In this document: positions 1,290-7,099 of the stretch, piece after piece
Layout: every line of letters begins with the position of its first letter
How positions within the stretch are numbered: the first letter of the stretch is position 1
NCBI GenBank assembly: GCA_021777535.1
Contig: JAJYDN010000006.1
Coordinates: 1-60,068 of the forward strand
Length of the DNA: 60,068 nucleotides
Direction of reading: 5' to 3'
From: Pseudomonadota bacterium
GTDB taxonomy: Bacteria; Pseudomonadota; Gammaproteobacteria; Acidiferrobacterales; Acidiferrobacteraceae
Translations under genes and position numbers: made by a program
Notes under the pieces: generated by a model
Told to the model about the DNA's origin: nothing
Seen by the model: the letters and a program-made list of their open reading frames with translations, nothing else
Databases searched by the model: none

Positions 1290-1772
1290 ATGAGGAACGC
1301 AGGGACGATCGTGGTCGTCGCGCTCGCCGGGGCGATCGGCCTCACCGGCTGGGTGACAGGGGTGAGGGCAACACAGGACTCTGTGCTGCTTGCGCAGATG
1401 GGCCCGATGGATCAGGGATTGATGGATCGGGGCATGATGGGGCACCCGATGACGGGGCACAGGATGATGGGGGAGGTCATGGGCGGGGGGCCTGCTGCGC
1501 ACGCGCTCAGGGCCTATATAAGGAGGCAGCATCTCGCCTGTCTCAGCTGTCACCGGATTTACAGAGGCGCCGTGGGGCCAGCCTTCGCCGCCATCAGCGC
1601 CCGCTACAGAGGGCGGCCGGGTGCCAGCCGGCAGTTGGCGGAGGCGATCGCTGTGGGCGTCTCCGGCGCATGGGCGGGTTTCCGGGCCATGCCGGGCGGG
1701 CTTGCCACGCCCCTGCAGGCCCGCAGGCTCGCCACGCTCATTCTCCACCTGCAGTCCGCCCACCATCCGTGA
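1290..1772 (+). CDS. Small exported c-type cytochrome with Met/His-rich linker
   Basis: 160 residues. The start is ATG 1290 because a strong AGGAGG precedes it; an in-frame upstream start at 1236 lacks one. An N-terminal hydrophobic segment (about residues 6-24) looks like a Sec signal peptide or anchor. One haem c motif, CLSCH, sits at residues 84-88, and a likely distal Met ligand lies in RAMPGG near 134, giving a single class I cytochrome domain of about 80 residues. Between signal and haem domain is a linker dense in Met and His (about residues 37-64, with GMMGHPMTGHRMM), which resembles copper-binding segments. It should act in the periplasm as an electron carrier; its partner is not encoded nearby. 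A short GC hairpin plus TTTT follows the stop. Confidence 0.8.
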   Translation: MRNAGTIVVVALAGAIGLTGWVTGVRATQDSVLLAQMGPMDQGLMDRGMMGHPMTGHRMMGEVMGGGPAAHALRAYIRRQHLACLSCHRIYRGAVGPAFAAISARYRGRPGASRQLAEAIAVGVSGAWAGFRAMPGGLATPLQARRLATLILHLQSAHHP

Positions 1773-1783
1773 CGGATCGGCGC

Positions 1784-1798
1784 GGGGCCGCCCCTTTT
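1784..1798 (+). terminator. Short terminator-like hairpin after the cytochrome gene
   Basis: GGGG-CCG-CCCC followed directly by TTTT, 12 bp after the cytochrome stop codon. The stem is only 4 bp, although flanking GC could extend it, so it is a weak intrinsic terminator candidate. The remaining bases to 2033 show no gene. Confidence 0.4.
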
Positions 1799-2009
1799 GA
1801 AGGCGCCACCCAGCACCTTGCGTGCGCATGCGGGCTGTACCGGAGGGCGGGCCGCCGGTGTCTGTGCGTACGGATCCCGTGCCACGGGAGGAAGGGGGAG
1901 GGGTGCCCGTGTGGGTTGCGGAGCGGCTGCGCGGGGTTGCCGGTACGCAGAGGGAACCAAAAAGCAGGCGTCCGGACGGTGCCCAAGGGAGGCTGCCCCG
2001 GCCGGCCCG

Positions 2010-2024
2010 CAGGGCGCGGCCCTG
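2010..2024 (-). terminator. Hairpin after the last gene of the Roadblock operon
   Basis: CAGGGC-GCG-GCCCTG forms a 6-bp perfect stem 10 bp beyond the stop of the distal Roadblock gene. No U-tract follows on the minus strand, so termination here would be inefficient or protein-assisted. Confidence 0.3.
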
Positions 2025-2033
2025 TGGCCCAGG

Positions 2034-2435
2034 TCAGCCGCGGATCTTGGTGGCGAGCTTTAGCGCAGTCTTGCGCGCCTCGATGAACAACATGCCGAGG
2101 TTTATGGTGGGACGGGCGGCGATGGCAAGGAGCGCATCGGTGCCGACCTGTACCAGCAGCATGAGGCCGGTCTCCCCTTCGATCAGCACCTGTTTTAGCC
2201 GTCCGCGCGAGATCTCCTGCGCGGCGCGGTCCGTCAGGGCGAGCAAAGATGCGCACATGGCCGCAAAACGGTCCGGGTCGGCTTTGTCGCCGAGCACGGC
2301 TGCGATCATGAAGCCGTCGGTGGACATCAGGGCGGACGCCTCGACGTCTGCCGCCGAGGCATTGAGTTCGCGCAAAACGGAACGCAGCGCGCTTGCGTGG
2401 GCATCGTTTCCCGATGCGGTGGACGGGGGCGTCAT
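2034..2435 (-). CDS. Roadblock/LC7-domain protein (distal copy)
   Basis: 133 residues, essentially one Roadblock/LC7 domain. After a short N-terminal helix (SALRSVLRELNAS) come the typical strand VEASALMSTDGFMIAA, a helix ending in SLLALTDRAAQEI, the strand pair QVLIEGETGLMLLVQVG / DALLAIAARP, and a C-terminal helix. Bacterial Roadblock proteins such as MglB and CvnB are GAPs or scaffolds for Ras-like GTPases. The cognate GTPase is encoded two genes upstream in the same operon. ATG 2435 has a GGAGA box. A very stable hairpin separates it from the preceding Roadblock gene, so its expression may be set separately. Biochemical role is inferred. Confidence 0.85.
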   Translation of the reverse strand: MTPPSTASGNDAHASALRSVLRELNASAADVEASALMSTDGFMIAAVLGDKADPDRFAAMCASLLALTDRAAQEISRGRLKQVLIEGETGLMLLVQVGTDALLAIAARPTINLGMLFIEARKTALKLATKIRG

Positions 2436-2471
2436 GAGAATTCTCCAGAAGGCGAAGTCACGCGGGCAAAT

Positions 2472-2501
2472 GGCACCGCCGGCCCGAAGGCCGGCGGTGC
2501 C
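2472..2501 (-). promoter_or_regulatory. Intercistronic 13-bp hairpin with UUCG loop between the two Roadblock genes
   Basis: On the minus strand GGCACCGCCGGCC pairs perfectly with GGCCGGCGGTGCC around a TTCG loop, a 13-bp stem capped by the extra-stable C(UUCG)G tetraloop. It begins 6 bp after the stop of the first Roadblock gene and lies 36 bp before the start of the second. No U-run follows, so it more likely acts as an attenuator, a 3'-end stabiliser or a processing barrier than as a full terminator. Confidence 0.6.
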
Positions 2502-2506
2502 TGCGC

Positions 2507-2920
2507 TCAGACCGCCGCTTCCACGGCCGGCATGGCGCCGCGTGCCTTGGTGAGGGCCATGCCGAGGTTTGCCGACTTGCGGCAGACGAAACAGACCACG
2601 TATTCCTCGTTGCTCTTGCTGCGCAAGAAGATATGGAGGAGGTTGTCGCTGTTGACGATGATCTCCTGGAAATAATGATGATTGTTGCCGGGATCAATGC
2701 CGCGCGCCTTCTTGAACAGGTTCTCGATCATGGAAACGTTCGATCCCTGAAAGAGGTCGGCCGTCGCGGCGGCAAGCAACTCGAGGACCTGCTGTGGGTG
2801 CGAGTCGATGGTGCGGATGCCGAGCATCATGCCGGTGGACAGATCCACATAACCGGCGGCGACGCATTCCGGGATATTGCTGACGGCTTGTTGCAGGGCT
2901 GTATCAAGGTTGCTGGCCAT
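2507..2920 (-). CDS. Roadblock/LC7-like protein (proximal copy)
   Basis: 137 residues with the Roadblock order helix-strands-helix-strands-helix: N-terminal helix LDTALQQAVSNIPE, strands AAGYVDLSTGMMLGIRT, long helix QQVLELLAAATADLF, then strands FQEIIVNSDNLLHIFLRS and EYVVCFVCRK, and final helix LGMALTKAR. It is clearly diverged from the second copy, so the pair could heterodimerise or bind different partners. The ATG at 2920 is preceded by a purine-rich AAGGAGA. It follows the ABC-phosphatase gene by 46 bp in the same transcription unit. Function as a GTPase partner is inferred from family and context. Confidence 0.78.
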   Translation of the reverse strand: MASNLDTALQQAVSNIPECVAAGYVDLSTGMMLGIRTIDSHPQQVLELLAAATADLFQGSNVSMIENLFKKARGIDPGNNHHYFQEIIVNSDNLLHIFLRSKSNEEYVVCFVCRKSANLGMALTKARGAMPAVEAAV

Positions 2921-2966
2921 TTGTTTCTCTCCTTATTCGTTGTTGCGTGTGGGTGAACGGAATGAC

Positions 2967-4313
2967 TCACATCCCGCCGGGCACCATGGCCGGTGGTCTG
3001 TGTTGGCCTGCGCCAGACAGGACGCGGGCAAACTGTTCCAGGAACTTGACCTGGATGTCGGACTGGACCCAGCGCGGCTCGATACGGCGCGCGCTTTCCA
3101 GGGCCGACAAGGCAGACTGGCCCTCCCAGATGAGGTAGGCGGCGAGTATGGTGCCAGTGCGGCCAAGGCCGGCACGGCAGTGGACTGCGATGACATCGCC
3201 GGCGGCCAGGCGCCCGTCCAGGGTCTGGCACAAGCGGGCGGCCTCGACGAGACTCGGGGCCCCCATGTCATCGATAGGCAGCCAGACGTTCTCGATGGCA
3301 TGACGAGCGAGCGCGGCTGTATCGGGCGGCGTGCGCGTGAGGGTGACGAGACAGGTGATGCCGACCCGTTTCAAGGCCTTCAGGTCGTAGTCGATGTCGT
3401 CGACGATGCCGGGCCGCGGTGTGCCGGCGAGCCGGCTCTTTTTGAGCCACAGGAAACCGCGCGGGCCGAAACTGTCACTTACATAGGCGCGCGCCGCCGG
3501 AGGAAGCGGCGGGCGCGGCAGCACGGCGGGATCCAGGGTGGCCGGGTCGGCGTCGGGTGCCGGCAGGGCGCAGGAACCGGTGCGCACGAAGTCGCGGGCG
3601 GCGGTTGATGCCGGCGCGCCAAAGAAGGTCTCGCTGGGCGAGACGGCCTGTACGGCACCACCGGCGAGGAGGGCAACCGTCCCGCCAAGGCGGCGTGCCT
3701 GGGCCTGATTGTGCAAAACGATCAGCACCGACCGGCGCTTGGCTTCCTCGAGAAGATAAGCGAGAAAACGCGCCGCCTCCTCGTCGGACAAACCCGTCGT
3801 CGGTTCGTCGAGCAGCAAAAGACGCGGGCTGGCGGCCACGAGCCGCAAGGTGGCGATGTGCCGCTGTTCGGCAAGGGAGAGGTGAATCACGGGCTCGTCC
3901 AGCCGTGCCAGCAGTTCCTTCAGGCCGGCCTCGAGCAGCAGGCGCTGGGCGAGATCGCGCTGTTCGAGATTCGTGAGCGCGTGGCGTTCCGGCAATTCGT
4001 GAACGATATTTTCGAACAGGCTCGCCATCATGAGGCGCGCGCTCTGCGAAACGAGGGCAGGCCGCGTGGACTCGGTGAGCGGGCGGCCGCAATACCATGC
4101 CTGCCCCCAGGTGCGCAGGGACGGATTGCTGTCGTTGAAACCCGCAAGTGTGCGCAGGAGCGTCGATTTGCCGGTGCCGCCGGGCCCGAGGAGGACGCAG
4201 AGGTGGCGATCGGGAATGTGGAGATCGACCGCGCTCAGGATGGTCCGTTCCCCGAAGGCGACGCCGAAACCGCGCAGGGAAAGCAGGGTGTCCGGCTCGT
4301 GCACGGCGCTCAT
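2967..4313 (-). CDS. ABC ATPase fused to a dual-specificity/tyrosine phosphatase domain
   Basis: 448 residues, two domains. Residues about 8-235 form an ABC ATPase: Walker A GPGGTGKST (43-51), Q-loop Gln near 90, Walker B LLLLDEP (165-171) and a switch His at 201. The signature is LSLAEQ (145-150) instead of LSGGQ. Residues about 275-435 form a cysteine phosphatase: a candidate general acid in LPIDD (346-349) and the loop HCRAGLGRTGT (378-388) with Cys379 and Arg385, the CX5R motif of dual-specificity enzymes. A Pro-rich linker joins them. No permease is encoded nearby, so membrane transport is unlikely; a soluble, signalling ATPase is more plausible. The gene overlaps the GTPase gene by one base. 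I know of no characterised protein with this architecture. Confidence 0.88.
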   Translation of the reverse strand: MSAVHEPDTLLSLRGFGVAFGERTILSAVDLHIPDRHLCVLLGPGGTGKSTLLRTLAGFNDSNPSLRTWGQAWYCGRPLTESTRPALVSQSARLMMASLFENIVHELPERHALTNLEQRDLAQRLLLEAGLKELLARLDEPVIHLSLAEQRHIATLRLVAASPRLLLLDEPTTGLSDEEAARFLAYLLEEAKRRSVLIVLHNQAQARRLGGTVALLAGGAVQAVSPSETFFGAPASTAARDFVRTGSCALPAPDADPATLDPAVLPRPPLPPAARAYVSDSFGPRGFLWLKKSRLAGTPRPGIVDDIDYDLKALKRVGITCLVTLTRTPPDTAALARHAIENVWLPIDDMGAPSLVEAARLCQTLDGRLAAGDVIAVHCRAGLGRTGTILAAYLIWEGQSALSALESARRIEPRWVQSDIQVKFLEQFARVLSGAGQHRPPAMVPGGM

Positions 4314-4846
4314 CAGCGGTCCAGTCCGGGATCCAAAGTGGCGAGCAGCGCCAGCAGGAGCGTCTTCATGTCTGCGCGTGACCGTGGGTCCACCTCGAAC
4401 ACTGGCACATGGAGATTCAGGCTTTCCAGGCGCTCCTGATAGGCCGAAAGCCGCGGCTCCGGATAGCCCTCCATGCGGTTGACGCCGATGACGACGGCAG
4501 TGCGGGCAATGAAGCCGGCGAAGGCCTCGAGGTAGAACGTGAGATCCGCGAGCGGGTCAGGGCGGCTGTTGTCGGAGAGGAGGACGAGGCCGATCCCGCC
4601 CGCTGTGGCGATGTCCCACATGAAACTGAAACGTTCCTGTCCGGGTGTTCCGTAGAGATGGATCTTGGTGCCGCCTTCGAGATTCAGGATGCCGTAGTCC
4701 ATCGCCACCGTCGTATGCGACTTGATGAGCTGCGTGTCGTCGGTTGCGCGCGCCTCGGTGGCCACGACGGGGATGTCGCTGATGGTGCTGATGGCCGTGG
4801 TTTTTCCGGCTCCGACCGGGCCTGCAAAGAGGATCTTGTGCGCCAT
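4313..4846 (-). CDS. MglA/CvnD-like small Ras-type GTPase
   Basis: 177 residues. G1/Walker A is GPVGAGKTT (9-17), a switch I threonine lies in SHTTVAMDYG (about 43-52), and the G3/switch II is GTPGQERF (66-73), giving the classic Gln-Glu-Arg-Phe of Ras-like proteins. The G4 motif reads NRME (123-126) instead of NKxD, so guanine selectivity may be relaxed. There is no signal peptide and no lipidation motif. The nearest families are the bacterial GTPases that pair with Roadblock proteins (MglA, actinobacterial conservon CvnD). It ends on the first base of the ABC-phosphatase gene and starts 4 bp after the upstream gene, so the operon is tightly coupled. Role as a nucleotide-dependent switch is inference from family. 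Confidence 0.88.
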   Translation of the reverse strand: MAHKILFAGPVGAGKTTAISTISDIPVVATEARATDDTQLIKSHTTVAMDYGILNLEGGTKIHLYGTPGQERFSFMWDIATAGGIGLVLLSDNSRPDPLADLTFYLEAFAGFIARTAVVIGVNRMEGYPEPRLSAYQERLESLNLHVPVFEVDPRSRADMKTLLLALLATLDPGLDR

Positions 4847-4850
4847 GGGA

Positions 4851-5486
4851 TCAGAGCCTGGTGATGCGCTGGAACAAGGCTGACAACAAGCCCTGGCTGC
4901 GATGCGGCGCGAGCTCGGGTTCCGCGGTCTTGCGATTCACGGCATGCGCGAAACCGGCCGCGCGCGCGGCACTGTAGAACCGGGAGAGCTCACTGAACTC
5001 CACCTTCAGAAGGGAACGGGCGATGGTGAGCGACGTCGGCTGCCGGGCAAAGAGCGCGGCCATCCGTATGCTGTTGGGTGTGACGGGAAGCCGGGTCATG
5101 TTCGGCCACTGCAAGAGTTCGACTACGTCATCGCGGTAACAGCCGGCCATCAGGCGGCCATCCGATGCATGAAAGGCTGCCTCCCACAAAAGCTCCCGGA
5201 TCGGGCGGCCTGCGTTGGAGGGCAGAGGACGCAGGGGGTCGTTGGGCGCTACCGTGCGGACCTGTACATGGGCCGCCGCGAGCGTACAGAACGCGCGCAT
5301 GTCGGCGACGTGCGGCCAGTACCCGCCGCGGGCGGGCAAAAGGAGAATCGTGCCAAGCCCGTTGGCGGAAAGCAGGACGTCCTGATTGTTGGTGACGGCC
5401 CGCCGGACGAGATTGACGGCGTAGTGATCCGGCTCAAACGATGCGATTCCCGGCGCGCGCGTCTCGCGTTCAATGTGTGCGATCAA
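4851..5486 (-). CDS. Unrecognised first gene of the GTPase/Roadblock operon
   Basis: 211 residues from TTG 5486, chosen because AGGAG lies 9 nt upstream; an in-frame TTG at 5549 would add 21 residues but has no ribosome-binding site. The N-terminal half (about to residue 115) is mixed alpha/beta, with ANGLGTILLLPARGGYWP and YAVNLVRRAV. The C-terminal half looks helical and winged-helix-like, around LLQWPNMTRLPVTPN, RMAALFARQPTSLTIARSLL and FSELSRFYSAARAAGF. There is no membrane segment or catalytic motif I recognise. As the first gene after the riboswitch, 4 bp from the GTPase gene, it may be the input or adaptor component. Function unknown. Confidence 0.75.
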   Translation of the reverse strand: MIAHIERETRAPGIASFEPDHYAVNLVRRAVTNNQDVLLSANGLGTILLLPARGGYWPHVADMRAFCTLAAAHVQVRTVAPNDPLRPLPSNAGRPIRELLWEAAFHASDGRLMAGCYRDDVVELLQWPNMTRLPVTPNSIRMAALFARQPTSLTIARSLLKVEFSELSRFYSAARAAGFAHAVNRKTAEPELAPHRSQGLLSALFQRITRL

Positions 5487-5595
5487 GTGCCTGCTCTCCT
5501 GGCGTGCGGTACCGCGCGGCCGTAGCGGCGCGCGCCTCTGCTGCGTCAAACACCGGTTTTCAGGCGAGGGAAGGGCTATGCAGGAAGGAACGACC

Positions 5596-5641
5596 TGGAC
5601 AGGCGCTTAAGCGGACCTGCGCGGGATCGCGCCCCTGTCCA
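5596..5641 (-). promoter_or_regulatory. Leader hairpin between riboswitch and first gene
   Basis: On the minus strand TGGACAGG(GG)CGC pairs with GCGCCTGTCCA, an 11-bp stem with a two-base bulge, about 50 nt downstream of the aptamer. It could be part of the expression platform. No U-run follows, so control by simple intrinsic termination is not evident. Confidence 0.35.
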
Positions 5642-5687
5642 TCGTGATGCGGTGTGTCCAGCCGATGTTCCCATGGCTGGCGCTGTG

Positions 5688-5768
5688 CCGGCGGTCCCGC
5701 TGTCATAGGGTATCCCCCTTAGACCGGTGACTTTGCGACCTGACCTTTCGGCCAGTGTGCTTTTGACT
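5688..5768 (-). promoter_or_regulatory. GEMM-I cyclic-dinucleotide riboswitch, A20 (cGAMP-type) variant
   Basis: Read on the minus strand from about 5768. AAAAGCACA leads to a 6-bp stem CTGGCC/GGTCAG closed by a GAAA tetraloop. Next comes GTCGCAAAGTCACCGGTCTAA (conserved core GACGCAAAGCCnCnGGnCTAA), a short stem AGGG/CCCT and the receptor strand TATGACAGCGGGAC. The stem and core keep exactly the spacing of the Vibrio Vc2 aptamer. The core's GTC still pairs with a downstream GAC, a compensated change from consensus GCC/GG(U/C). In Vc2 numbering position 20, which contacts one ligand base, is A here and not G; G20A is the hallmark of GEMM-Ib riboswitches that bind 3',3'-cGAMP. The predicted transcription start lies at the aptamer's first base. 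Ligand call is inference. Confidence 0.78.
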
Positions 5769-5774
5769 GAGTCT

Positions 5775-5804
5775 AAATTACTCTGGCACGAGAGCGTTTG
5801 TCAA
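5775..5804 (-). promoter_or_regulatory. Sigma-70 promoter of the GTPase/Roadblock operon
   Basis: Minus strand: -35 TTGACA (5804-5799), 18-bp spacer, -10 TAATTT (5780-5775). The start would fall near 5768, exactly where the riboswitch aptamer begins, which supports both calls. Confidence 0.72.
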
Positions 5805-5917: not shown

Positions 5918-6808
5918 TCAGGGCGGCGGTATCTCGCCGGAGACATCCGGTATCACATTATCGAAGCGGCTGTAGTCGACGACGTAGGTGTCCCCCCGCT
6001 TGGAGAGCACATCTTCCAGGCGGTGGCGGAGCAGGATGTCCTCAGGCCGGTAGACGTAGCGCGCGTGGATGCCCTGGGAAAGGGTTTCGTCGAGACCGGA
6101 CAAAATGACGACGATCTGCGCGTCGGCGGTGCGCAGCTGGTTGTAGTCGTAGCCATAGAGGGGGCTTTCCTTTGTGATCGGGTGCATGATCATCCAGGAG
6201 TAGGAGAAGGTGGGATTGCTCTTGCGCAGCAGGGGCAGGTCGTAGAAGCGGCGCATGGCGTGGCCTTCGGGACTTACCTCGTTGCGCAACAGTGTCGCCT
6301 CGACACGCGCCTCGAGAATCTGGTTGCCGCGCTTGTTGGCGGCGCGGAACATGAGTGTCGGTACGCCGTAATAGGCGCTGACGACCGCATGGCGGGTGAA
6401 GACGATGCGGGCGCGGGGGCGTGAAAAACGCGCATAGGCAAGGCCGGTGGCGAGCGCAAGCCCGAAGAGGCCGACGAGGGATTCGAGCGTCATCAGGATG
6501 TTGGCGAAGAACGTGCCCGGATACATGATGCCGTAGCCGATCGTCGCCATGGTCTGGACGCTGAAAAAGAAGGCATCCAGGAAGGATCCGGGGCGGGAAT
6601 GGACGATCGCGGCCGGCTGCGCCCAGTAGGCAAGGGCGAACAGCATGTTGACGCCGAGAAAGAGCAGGCCGACACCCAGCACGAAGCGGGGCCAGCCCAT
6701 GGTCAGCAAGGCATGGTACAGGTCACCCAAAAGGTCGGGCAGCCGGTCGCGCCAGGCTATGCGCGGCGGACGCGGGGACGGTTGCGGGTCGGATGTGCGC
6801 TGCGGCAT
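5918..6808 (-). CDS. KirBac-type inward-rectifier potassium channel
   Basis: 296 residues from ATG 6808; an upstream in-frame start at 6958 adds an Arg-rich stretch unlike the family. The order is that of KirBac channels: a slide helix (DLLGDLYHALLTMGWP), TM1 near residues 42-62, the pore helix FFFSVQTMA, the selectivity filter TIGYG (89-93), TM2 near 104-124, then a C-terminal immunoglobulin-like cytoplasmic domain with LMFRAANKRGNQI and LPLLRKSNPTFSYSW. It should conduct K+ across the inner membrane as a tetramer. It stands alone, minus strand, about 180 bp from the divergent SRP RNA gene. K+ channels help acidophiles keep a reversed membrane potential, but acidophily is only inferred here. 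Confidence 0.93.
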   Translation of the reverse strand: MPQRTSDPQPSPRPPRIAWRDRLPDLLGDLYHALLTMGWPRFVLGVGLLFLGVNMLFALAYWAQPAAIVHSRPGSFLDAFFFSVQTMATIGYGIMYPGTFFANILMTLESLVGLFGLALATGLAYARFSRPRARIVFTRHAVVSAYYGVPTLMFRAANKRGNQILEARVEATLLRNEVSPEGHAMRRFYDLPLLRKSNPTFSYSWMIMHPITKESPLYGYDYNQLRTADAQIVVILSGLDETLSQGIHARYVYRPEDILLRHRLEDVLSKRGDTYVVDYSRFDNVIPDVSGEIPPP

Positions 6809-6932
6809 GGCCGTTTCGCCGGGATGGGCTGGTCTGATGGCTGGCTCAAGGCTGCCACGAAAAAGGCAGGTGCGCAAATCACCCAAACGCCGCCCGCAGG
6901 CGTGCCGCCGGTAGGCCCTGTACCGGAAAGTG

Positions 6933-6941
6933 TGGTAATCT
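6933..6941 (+). promoter_or_regulatory. ffs: Extended -10 promoter candidate for the SRP RNA gene
   Basis: TGG followed by TAATCT gives an extended -10 element (TGnTAATCT). No good -35 lies 17-18 bp upstream. A start near 6948 would precede the predicted mature RNA by about 40 nt. Confidence 0.35.
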
Positions 6942-6987
6942 CTGGTCCGTCGGAGCAATCCGGCGCGCAGGCAGAAAAACGCGTTAT

Positions 6988-7099
6988 GGCGGTGACGGTC
7001 GACCCCCGCTGTGGCGATCGATCGTGAACCCGGTCAGGTCCGGAAGGAAGCAGCCGCAGCGATCCGGTCGGGTGCAGTGAAGGGCCGGCCCAAGCCGCC
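6988..7099 (+). ncRNA. ffs: 4.5S signal recognition particle RNA
   Basis: The universally conserved domain IV core is plain: GGTCAGGTCCGGAAGGAAGC (about 7035-7054), with the asymmetric loop and GGAA tetraloop that bind Ffh. Flanking sequence folds into one long hairpin, and the 5' GGCGG pairs with the 3' CCGCC to close it at about 112 nt. Exact ends are estimated from that pairing. It lies directly upstream of dnaX, as in many gammaproteobacteria. It forms the SRP with Ffh for co-translational membrane targeting. Confidence 0.92.

Follow-up and report, generated by a model that had tools for sequence, protein, structure and literature searches.

A predicted variant of the Group 3 MglA module with an ABC ATPase-phosphatase fusion, a companion Roadblock protein and an upstream c-di-GMP-I aptamer

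Several known bacterial systems join a Ras-like GTPase to a Roadblock protein, among them the MglA/MglB polarity module of Myxococcus and Thermus, the actinobacterial conservon (CvnA-D), and a cluster on plasmid pTB1 of Thermus brockianus in which such a pair is joined to globins and to enzymes of cyclic di-GMP (c-di-GMP). In the passages of Wuichet and Sogaard-Andersen (2014, PMC4316618) considered here, the Group 3 MglA systems of beta- and gammaproteobacteria consist of an unknown protein (receiver-like part plus winged helix), MglA, and one or two MglB proteins. The passage on ATP-binding cassette (ABC) proteins considered there concerns sequences that were excluded from that study, and the word 'phosphatase' is absent from its main text, a statement that does not extend to the supplementary neighbourhood table. 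Here we describe an operon related to these systems on contig JAJYDN010000006.1 (assembly GCA_021777535.1) of a Pseudomonadota bacterium of the family Acidiferrobacteraceae. It lies in a stretch of 60,068 nucleotides, which was analysed as a whole and is called the window below. The operon spans 5804-2034 on the minus strand and has a c-di-GMP-I aptamer ahead of five packed genes. Its features are as follows.

5777..5804, minus strand: promoter-like element seen by eye, TTGACA (5804-5799), 16-nt spacer, AGTAAT (5782-5777)
5687..5771, minus strand: c-di-GMP-I riboswitch aptamer, RF01051, 69.6 bits (gathering cut-off 35), model 1-87 in full length
5487..5686, minus strand: leader from the aptamer to the likely start of gene A, no terminator-like site, fold z -1.27 (unremarkable)
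4851..5549, minus strand: gene A, probable Group 3-type 'unknown' protein with a TTG start, predicted small beta domain and winged-helix part
4313..4846, minus strand: Ras-like small GTPase, probably of Group 3 MglA type, from Pfam ATP_bind_1, an alignment of 12 and a tree
2967..4313, minus strand: ABC ATPase (residues 27-173) fused to a dual-specificity phosphatase (residues ~284-404), from Pfam; ABC-DSP below
2507..2920, minus strand: R1, predicted Roadblock companion of ABC-DSP, from a fold match to MglB/Roadblock
2034..2435, minus strand: R2, MglB-like Roadblock, Robl_LC7 4.9e-16

As judged from sequence, the module of protein A, GTPase and Roadblocks carries ABC-DSP with a Roadblock of its own, R1, and in several lineages the aptamer lies directly upstream. 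The operon may thus be read as a variant of the Group 3 MglA module to which an ATP-gated phosphatase and gating by c-di-GMP have been added and which perhaps acts on pili, a reading to which we give slightly less than even confidence. It resembles the Group 3 system in its unknown protein with a putative winged helix, its MglA-type GTPase with odd G4 and G5 motifs, its two Roadblocks, and its beta- and gammaproteobacterial hosts. It differs in the ABC-DSP inserted between GTPase and Roadblocks, in the distinct R1, in the c-di-GMP riboswitch of some ABC-DSP operons, and in protein A, where no receiver-like N-terminal part is seen in the window's copy.

The initial annotation of this DNA had listed five packed minus-strand genes with a 4-bp gap and a 1-bp overlap, a GTPase, an ABC-phosphatase fusion, two Roadblocks, a cyclic-dinucleotide riboswitch and no histidine kinase. 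All of these hold: the intergenic distances along the operon are 4, -1, 46, and 71 bp, Pfam supports the domains (R1 by its predicted fold), RF01051 scores well above its gathering cut-off, and Pfam finds no histidine kinase among the five operon proteins. The same annotation called the operon undescribed, which is only partly right, because protein A, the GTPase and two Roadblocks match the Group 3 system of 2014, so that this core is already known. What remains of the claim is the conserved ABC-DSP/R1 pair with predicted c-di-GMP control, of which no account was recognised among the papers listed for the literature searched (few subscription papers, and neither preprints nor supplements; PMC7159879 contains none of the six terms sought in it, and in PMC10547765 'roadblock' has its common meaning); nor was a report on the function of any ABC-DSP operon found there.

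Conservation was surveyed starting from ABC-DSP and from R1. A species-genome scan with ABC-DSP gave 14 loci, of which L013, L014, and L015 were dropped, having an ordinary ABC domain only (24-26%). The remaining 11 (L002-L012) have the five genes in the same order, in Microbulbifer, Halospina, two Marinobacter, three Thiobacillus, Methylotenera, a Rhodocyclaceae, a betaproteobacterium and a gammaproteobacterial metagenome-assembled genome (MAG). R1 searches over 60, 369 and 299 genomes (overlapping sets) found 8, 8, and 5 genomes with at least 190 bits, which are 15 distinct genomes including the window's own; loci of the other 14 were read over up to 17 kb. Short loci (L001, L016-L055) were used only for picking genomes and for a first look.

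R1 is present in 11/11 true relatives found through ABC-DSP, and ABC-DSP adjoins R1 in 14/14 of the other genomes found through R1, so that the two are adjacent in all 25 relatives. The order A-GTPase-ABC-DSP-R1-R2 is intact in 17 of the 25 (18/26 with the window), six of these being among the R1-found loci (L056, L057, L059, L060, L061, L066). Absence of synteny in relatives had been set beforehand as the first condition that would refute the initial annotation, and these counts show the opposite, synteny being strong; because the gene order is conserved, a chance origin of the operon is excluded. The other arrangements are diverse: a globin gene stands between R1 and R2 in L064, R2 is missing from L063, L062 has two R1 genes in a rearranged locus, L058 stops at a contig edge, and L068 is loosely arranged. 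In L060, which keeps the full order, the ABC-DSP frame is split, the gene (L060:7451-8803) being broken across several frames by assembly error or decay.

For comparison, 16 control loci with a weak R1 match (42-71 bits) were read over 4.2-9.6 kb, leaving out a partial 22-bit match of G165 and weak matches outside the window's class. ABC-DSP or DSP is found in 0/16 of them, while a GTPase is present in 12/16, and the order A (19-84 bits)-GTPase-R2-R1, which is the published Group 3 anatomy, in 10/16. Five short loci with weak R1 outside the class (L051-L055) gave no ABC or DSP match, and no strong R1 outside the class was seen in the R1 genome search that extended beyond it. The partner rule that emerges is that R1 goes with ABC-DSP.

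ABC-DSP matches Pfam ABC_tran (4e-16), PTP-SAK (5e-19), and Tc-R-P (2e-19). The window's copy has the dual-specificity HCx5R(S/T) motif (HCRAGLGRT) with a general-acid Asp (D349), and HCxAGxGRT with an Asp 30 residues upstream recurs in 24/24 proteins or fragments surveyed, the window included (L067 and L068, below the score limit, were outside this survey, and their Pfam domains were determined separately). No two of the sequences compared pairwise are more than 90% identical. On the nucleotide side, Walker A (GPGGTGKS), Walker B (LLLDEPT), and the switch histidine (LHNQ) are present in the window, and Walker A is found in 22/24 of the proteins surveyed, L058 being cut by the contig end and L060 a fragment. 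The LSGGQ signature, on the other hand, is absent in all 23 proteins having that region; the window reads LSLAEQRH. It might be supposed that ABC-DSP serves a conventional transporter as its ATPase, with a phosphatase fused and the membrane part encoded elsewhere, as its ABC_tran domain with Walker motifs would allow. The lack of any permease family among the five window proteins (Pfam), the retention of LSGGQ in 0/23 cases, and the constant Roadblock partner make this very improbable. A defence system was also considered and rejected: PADLOC matches to ABC-DSP, the best of which reaches 46 bits, are confined to its general ATPase region, and there are none for the other four operon proteins. 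No ABC-DSP was found in a plasmid collection at E 1e-30.

R1 has no Pfam match above cut-off, and its assignment comes from its AlphaFold model (pLDDT 80). Among the PDB matches listed for this model, 49/50 are named Roadblock, MglB, MglC, MglA-MglB, Ragulator or Rag/LAMTOR, the remaining one being named only 'human heteroheptameric complex'; by predicted fold, R1 is a Roadblock protein. In a profile comparison of R1 with R2 only a C-terminal stretch of 31 columns was aligned (probability 78). R2 belongs to Robl_LC7, and a profile of 12 R2 sequences matches solved Roadblocks at 4e-26 at best and CvnB5 at 8e-11. The operon is thus like the MglA/MglB polarity module in having a Ras-like GTPase plus Roadblock and in the fold of R1, but it has an MglA of another group, and R2 misses the cut-off of the equivalog of the MglB GTPase-activating protein (NF052242, 21.1 bits against 200).

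Additional, more distant Roadblock genes (31-80 bits with the R2 profile) occur near the operon at L007:8485-8997, L056:3942-4304, L059:3321-3824, and L064:11069-11428. Two Ruegeria plasmids encode an R1-like Roadblock (L105:7998-8399, L106:5998-6399) amid four dynamin-family genes and a protein kinase, and in L105 FHA and PP2C genes stand next to this cluster.

The GTPase (ATP_bind_1, 4e-10) is a single domain of 177 amino acids, within the 150-240 of Group 3 MglA proteins. Its motifs are G1 GPVGAGKTT, G3 GTPGQ, G4 NRME without lysine, and G5 VDPR. In an alignment of 12 GTPases the G4 lysine is absent in 12/12 and the D-x-R of G5 (D153/R155) is invariant; according to the passages of PMC4316618 considered, both departures are published for MglA Groups 2 and 3. 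In a tree of 40 GTPases, which contains no named Group 3 reference but in which 10 of the 12 control rows have Group 3 anatomy, the 22 rows with ABC-DSP cluster with those 12 (94/85), whereas three conservon and two Deinococcota rows fall elsewhere. On this tree the label ABC-DSP requires 3 changes, against 13.5 in shuffles, and the GTPase of L068 sits on a long branch among the control rows. Among the matches listed, the window GTPase is 32-44% identical to Streptomyces plasmid copies, some over half the length only, and with the conservon it shares the pairing of Ras-like GTPase and Roadblock. Unlike the conservon, the operon has neither a histidine kinase (CvnA) nor DUF742 (CvnC), its gene order is different, and it has ABC-DSP. 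The pTB1 cluster differs as well, in that it gives no ABC-DSP match and its GTPase falls outside the Group 3-like set.

Protein A has no Pfam match above cut-off. Its AlphaFold2 model (pLDDT 84) consists of a small beta domain (residues ~40-104) and a putative winged-helix part (~128-206), and Foldseek gave no match under E 0.001. A homologue is found in 20/21 relatives holding the GTPase, L068 being the exception; in L008 and L062 the homologue is longer, and its additional N-terminal region matches no Pfam family above cut-off. A parallel with Rag/GATOR was not drawn, as the matches to winged helices of a GATOR1 subunit and FAM91A1 are below the tool's caution level. For gene A, the TTG at 5549 is a less likely start than the one at 5486, which has AGGAG nine bases before it and is near the homologue start in L006.

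The aptamer is a full-length c-di-GMP-I (GEMM) riboswitch domain above cut-off, and it may bind c-di-GMP and change expression; it differs from described members in preceding a GTPase module, a target not found in the literature searched. It is the single RF01051 match found in the window's genome, where 20 GGDEF matches were found. In 5/26 ABC-DSP operons (the window, L006, L009, L056, and L064, the other hosts being G020, G179, the gammaproteobacterial MAG and Methylotenera) an aptamer precedes A on the coding strand, 138-446 nt from the start of gene A used. Because the window was selected partly for its riboswitch, the fair count is 4/25, and one of these 25, L058, ends before the upstream region where an aptamer would be. 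The chance of such an aptamer is ~4e-5 per operon, estimated from 28 riboswitches above cut-off in 60 relatives with an assumed mean genome of 2.6 Mb, and the observed frequency is far above it. No c-di-GMP riboswitch was found in the 16 control loci. In G000 and G020 the operon aptamer is the sole one found in the genome, in G028 the sole one sits elsewhere than at the operon, and in G005, G007, G008, G016, and G024 no RF01051 aptamer was found.

The single promoter claimed in the initial annotation is visible by eye as TTGACA-16-AGTAAT, but a consensus scan accepts no promoter at its threshold upstream of the operon. With its perfect TTGACA, this element is a plausible candidate promoter and would place the transcription start near the aptamer's first base. 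Within 1750-5700 there are six terminator-like matches, five on the coding strand, against 2.9 in shuffles, from which a single transcript for the five genes appears likely.

The genes beside the operon bear on its possible output and input. Pilus genes are found in 5/25 relatives, of which L057, L058, L060, and L061 represent one genus of the window's family and are all of that family's operon-bearing relatives read, L067 being the fifth (L057:2670-6000, L058:2205-5532, L060:1601-5115, L061:12290-15782, L067:3377-5868). MshEN is a c-di-GMP-binding domain. In the four loci, genes for a PilB-type ATPase with MshEN, a prepilin peptidase and CoaE stand just downstream of R2 in convergent orientation (called by similarity in all four, with Pfam for the ATPase in four and for the peptidase and CoaE in L057), and in L067 two PilT/PilU-type ATPases are within 5 kb of ABC-DSP. 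The GTPase module may be a pilus or polarity switch as in Myxococcus, controlling type IV pili with ABC-DSP and c-di-GMP tuning it. In favour are these neighbours, the lack of any such match in the stretches read of the 16 control loci, the seven T2SSE-type ATPases (two adjacent) of the window's own genome, and a Group 3 mglB mutation in Snodgrassella that altered pilus-dependent motility, according to the part of PMC11112851 considered. But four of the five pilus cases are one genus, no pilB/pilT/pilD homologue was found in the window's 60 kb or in the stretches of the other 20 relatives, and the GTPase is Group 3-like rather than of the Group 1 of polarity work, with A resembling a winged-helix protein. 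A pilus switch is therefore a doubtful proposal on its own; it is compatible with the reading of the operon as a Group 3 variant, for which it names the output.

A globin-type gene is found downstream of R1 or R2 in 14/25 relatives (L003-L012, L056, L059, L063, L064), or 14/26 operons with the window. Most of these genes carry a fused 2Fe-2S domain, frequently together with a flavin/NAD reductase: by Pfam, the long form (L009) has 2Fe-2S, flavin, NAD and globin domains, the short form (L003) 2Fe-2S and globin, and L064 a globin domain alone, the other genes being assigned through similarity. Gas or redox sensing may thus be considered, the fuller kit having a globin-ferredoxin(-reductase), perhaps a handler of nitric oxide or O2, whose state the GTPase module reports, and the window being a reduced version. 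The Fer2 domain in two Pfam-checked forms and the reductase domains in one are in line with this. So are two plasmids: pTB1 of Thermus brockianus (L107:2126-9381) has GTPase, two protoglobins, Roadblock, EAL, and HD-GYP in one cluster, and pSU2 of Agarilytica (L104:2255-3931) has a BLUF-domain protein beside a GTPase homologue and a Roadblock. However, the window's genome has no Bac_globin match, and the long globin form is matched there only by reductase-like sequences; no globin stands by the operon in L057, L058, L060, and L061, and a globin match, though weak (66.5 bits), occurs in the control L096, which is without ABC-DSP. Such sensing as the main role is accordingly unlikely. Seven loci further encode, by the operon, a small protein of CxxCxxCC type, checked in Pfam for two of them. 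GGDEF or HD-GYP genes are present in at least L005, L065, and L004.

Taking the operon as a Group 3 variant with a gated phosphatase, the following mechanism may be proposed. c-di-GMP would bind the leader and set the amount of the five-gene kit produced. R2 would regulate the GTPase in the manner of MglB. The ABC domain, with Walker A, Walker B and switch histidine kept and LSGGQ lost, would be an ATP-binding clamp rather than a transport motor, docking onto the GTPase/R2 complex via R1 and gating the phosphatase, which would take phosphate off a module component or its target. The output might be protein A, binding DNA or serving as a scaffold by means of its putative winged helix. In those relatives that have the globin/2Fe-2S neighbour, this protein would feed in a gas or redox signal; the window's genome has no such globin. 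The most likely result would be that c-di-GMP, nucleotide state and, in relatives, redox state jointly set gene expression and surface behaviour. The full version, in which the state of the GTPase is set by an ATP-gated phosphatase through a dedicated Roadblock, c-di-GMP switches the whole device by way of an RNA, and a globin/iron-sulphur redox sensor feeds it in relatives, is tentative and, on our assessment, less likely than not. Surface motility may be the output, which is a fair guess; a pilus output is possible, with some neighbourhood support.

Several results weigh against the Group 3 variant reading. The riboswitch precedes only 5/26 operons, and 5/26 against 0/16 controls is not significant alone (Fisher p 0.14); no expression platform was found in the leader by terminator scan and fold analysis. 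In 3/25 loci (L065, L067, and L069) ABC-DSP and R1 are the only members of the five-gene set within the 17 kb read, so that their tie to the GTPase is not obligatory. The Ruegeria plasmids have an intermediate R1 (44-46% identity, 123 bits) with no ABC-DSP nearby. In the window's genus 0/2 other genomes have R1, and the operon is therefore patchy. The winged-helix matches of protein A reach Z 7.4 at most, below the tool's caution level.

If the reading is true, a single conserved unit would link c-di-GMP to a small G protein, to protein dephosphorylation and to an ATP clamp. The operon occurs in Marinobacter, Halospina, and Microbulbifer strains that bear names, in which the function of Group 3 MglA systems becomes testable.

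Two further features of the window may be noted. A potassium channel gene of inward-rectifier type (5918-6958, likewise on the minus strand; IRK_C 8e-25) immediately precedes the operon. Beyond it lies a bacterial small signal recognition particle RNA (6997-7093, plus strand; 69.8 bits), and the gene right after this RNA is presumably DnaX-like, as judged from its sequence.

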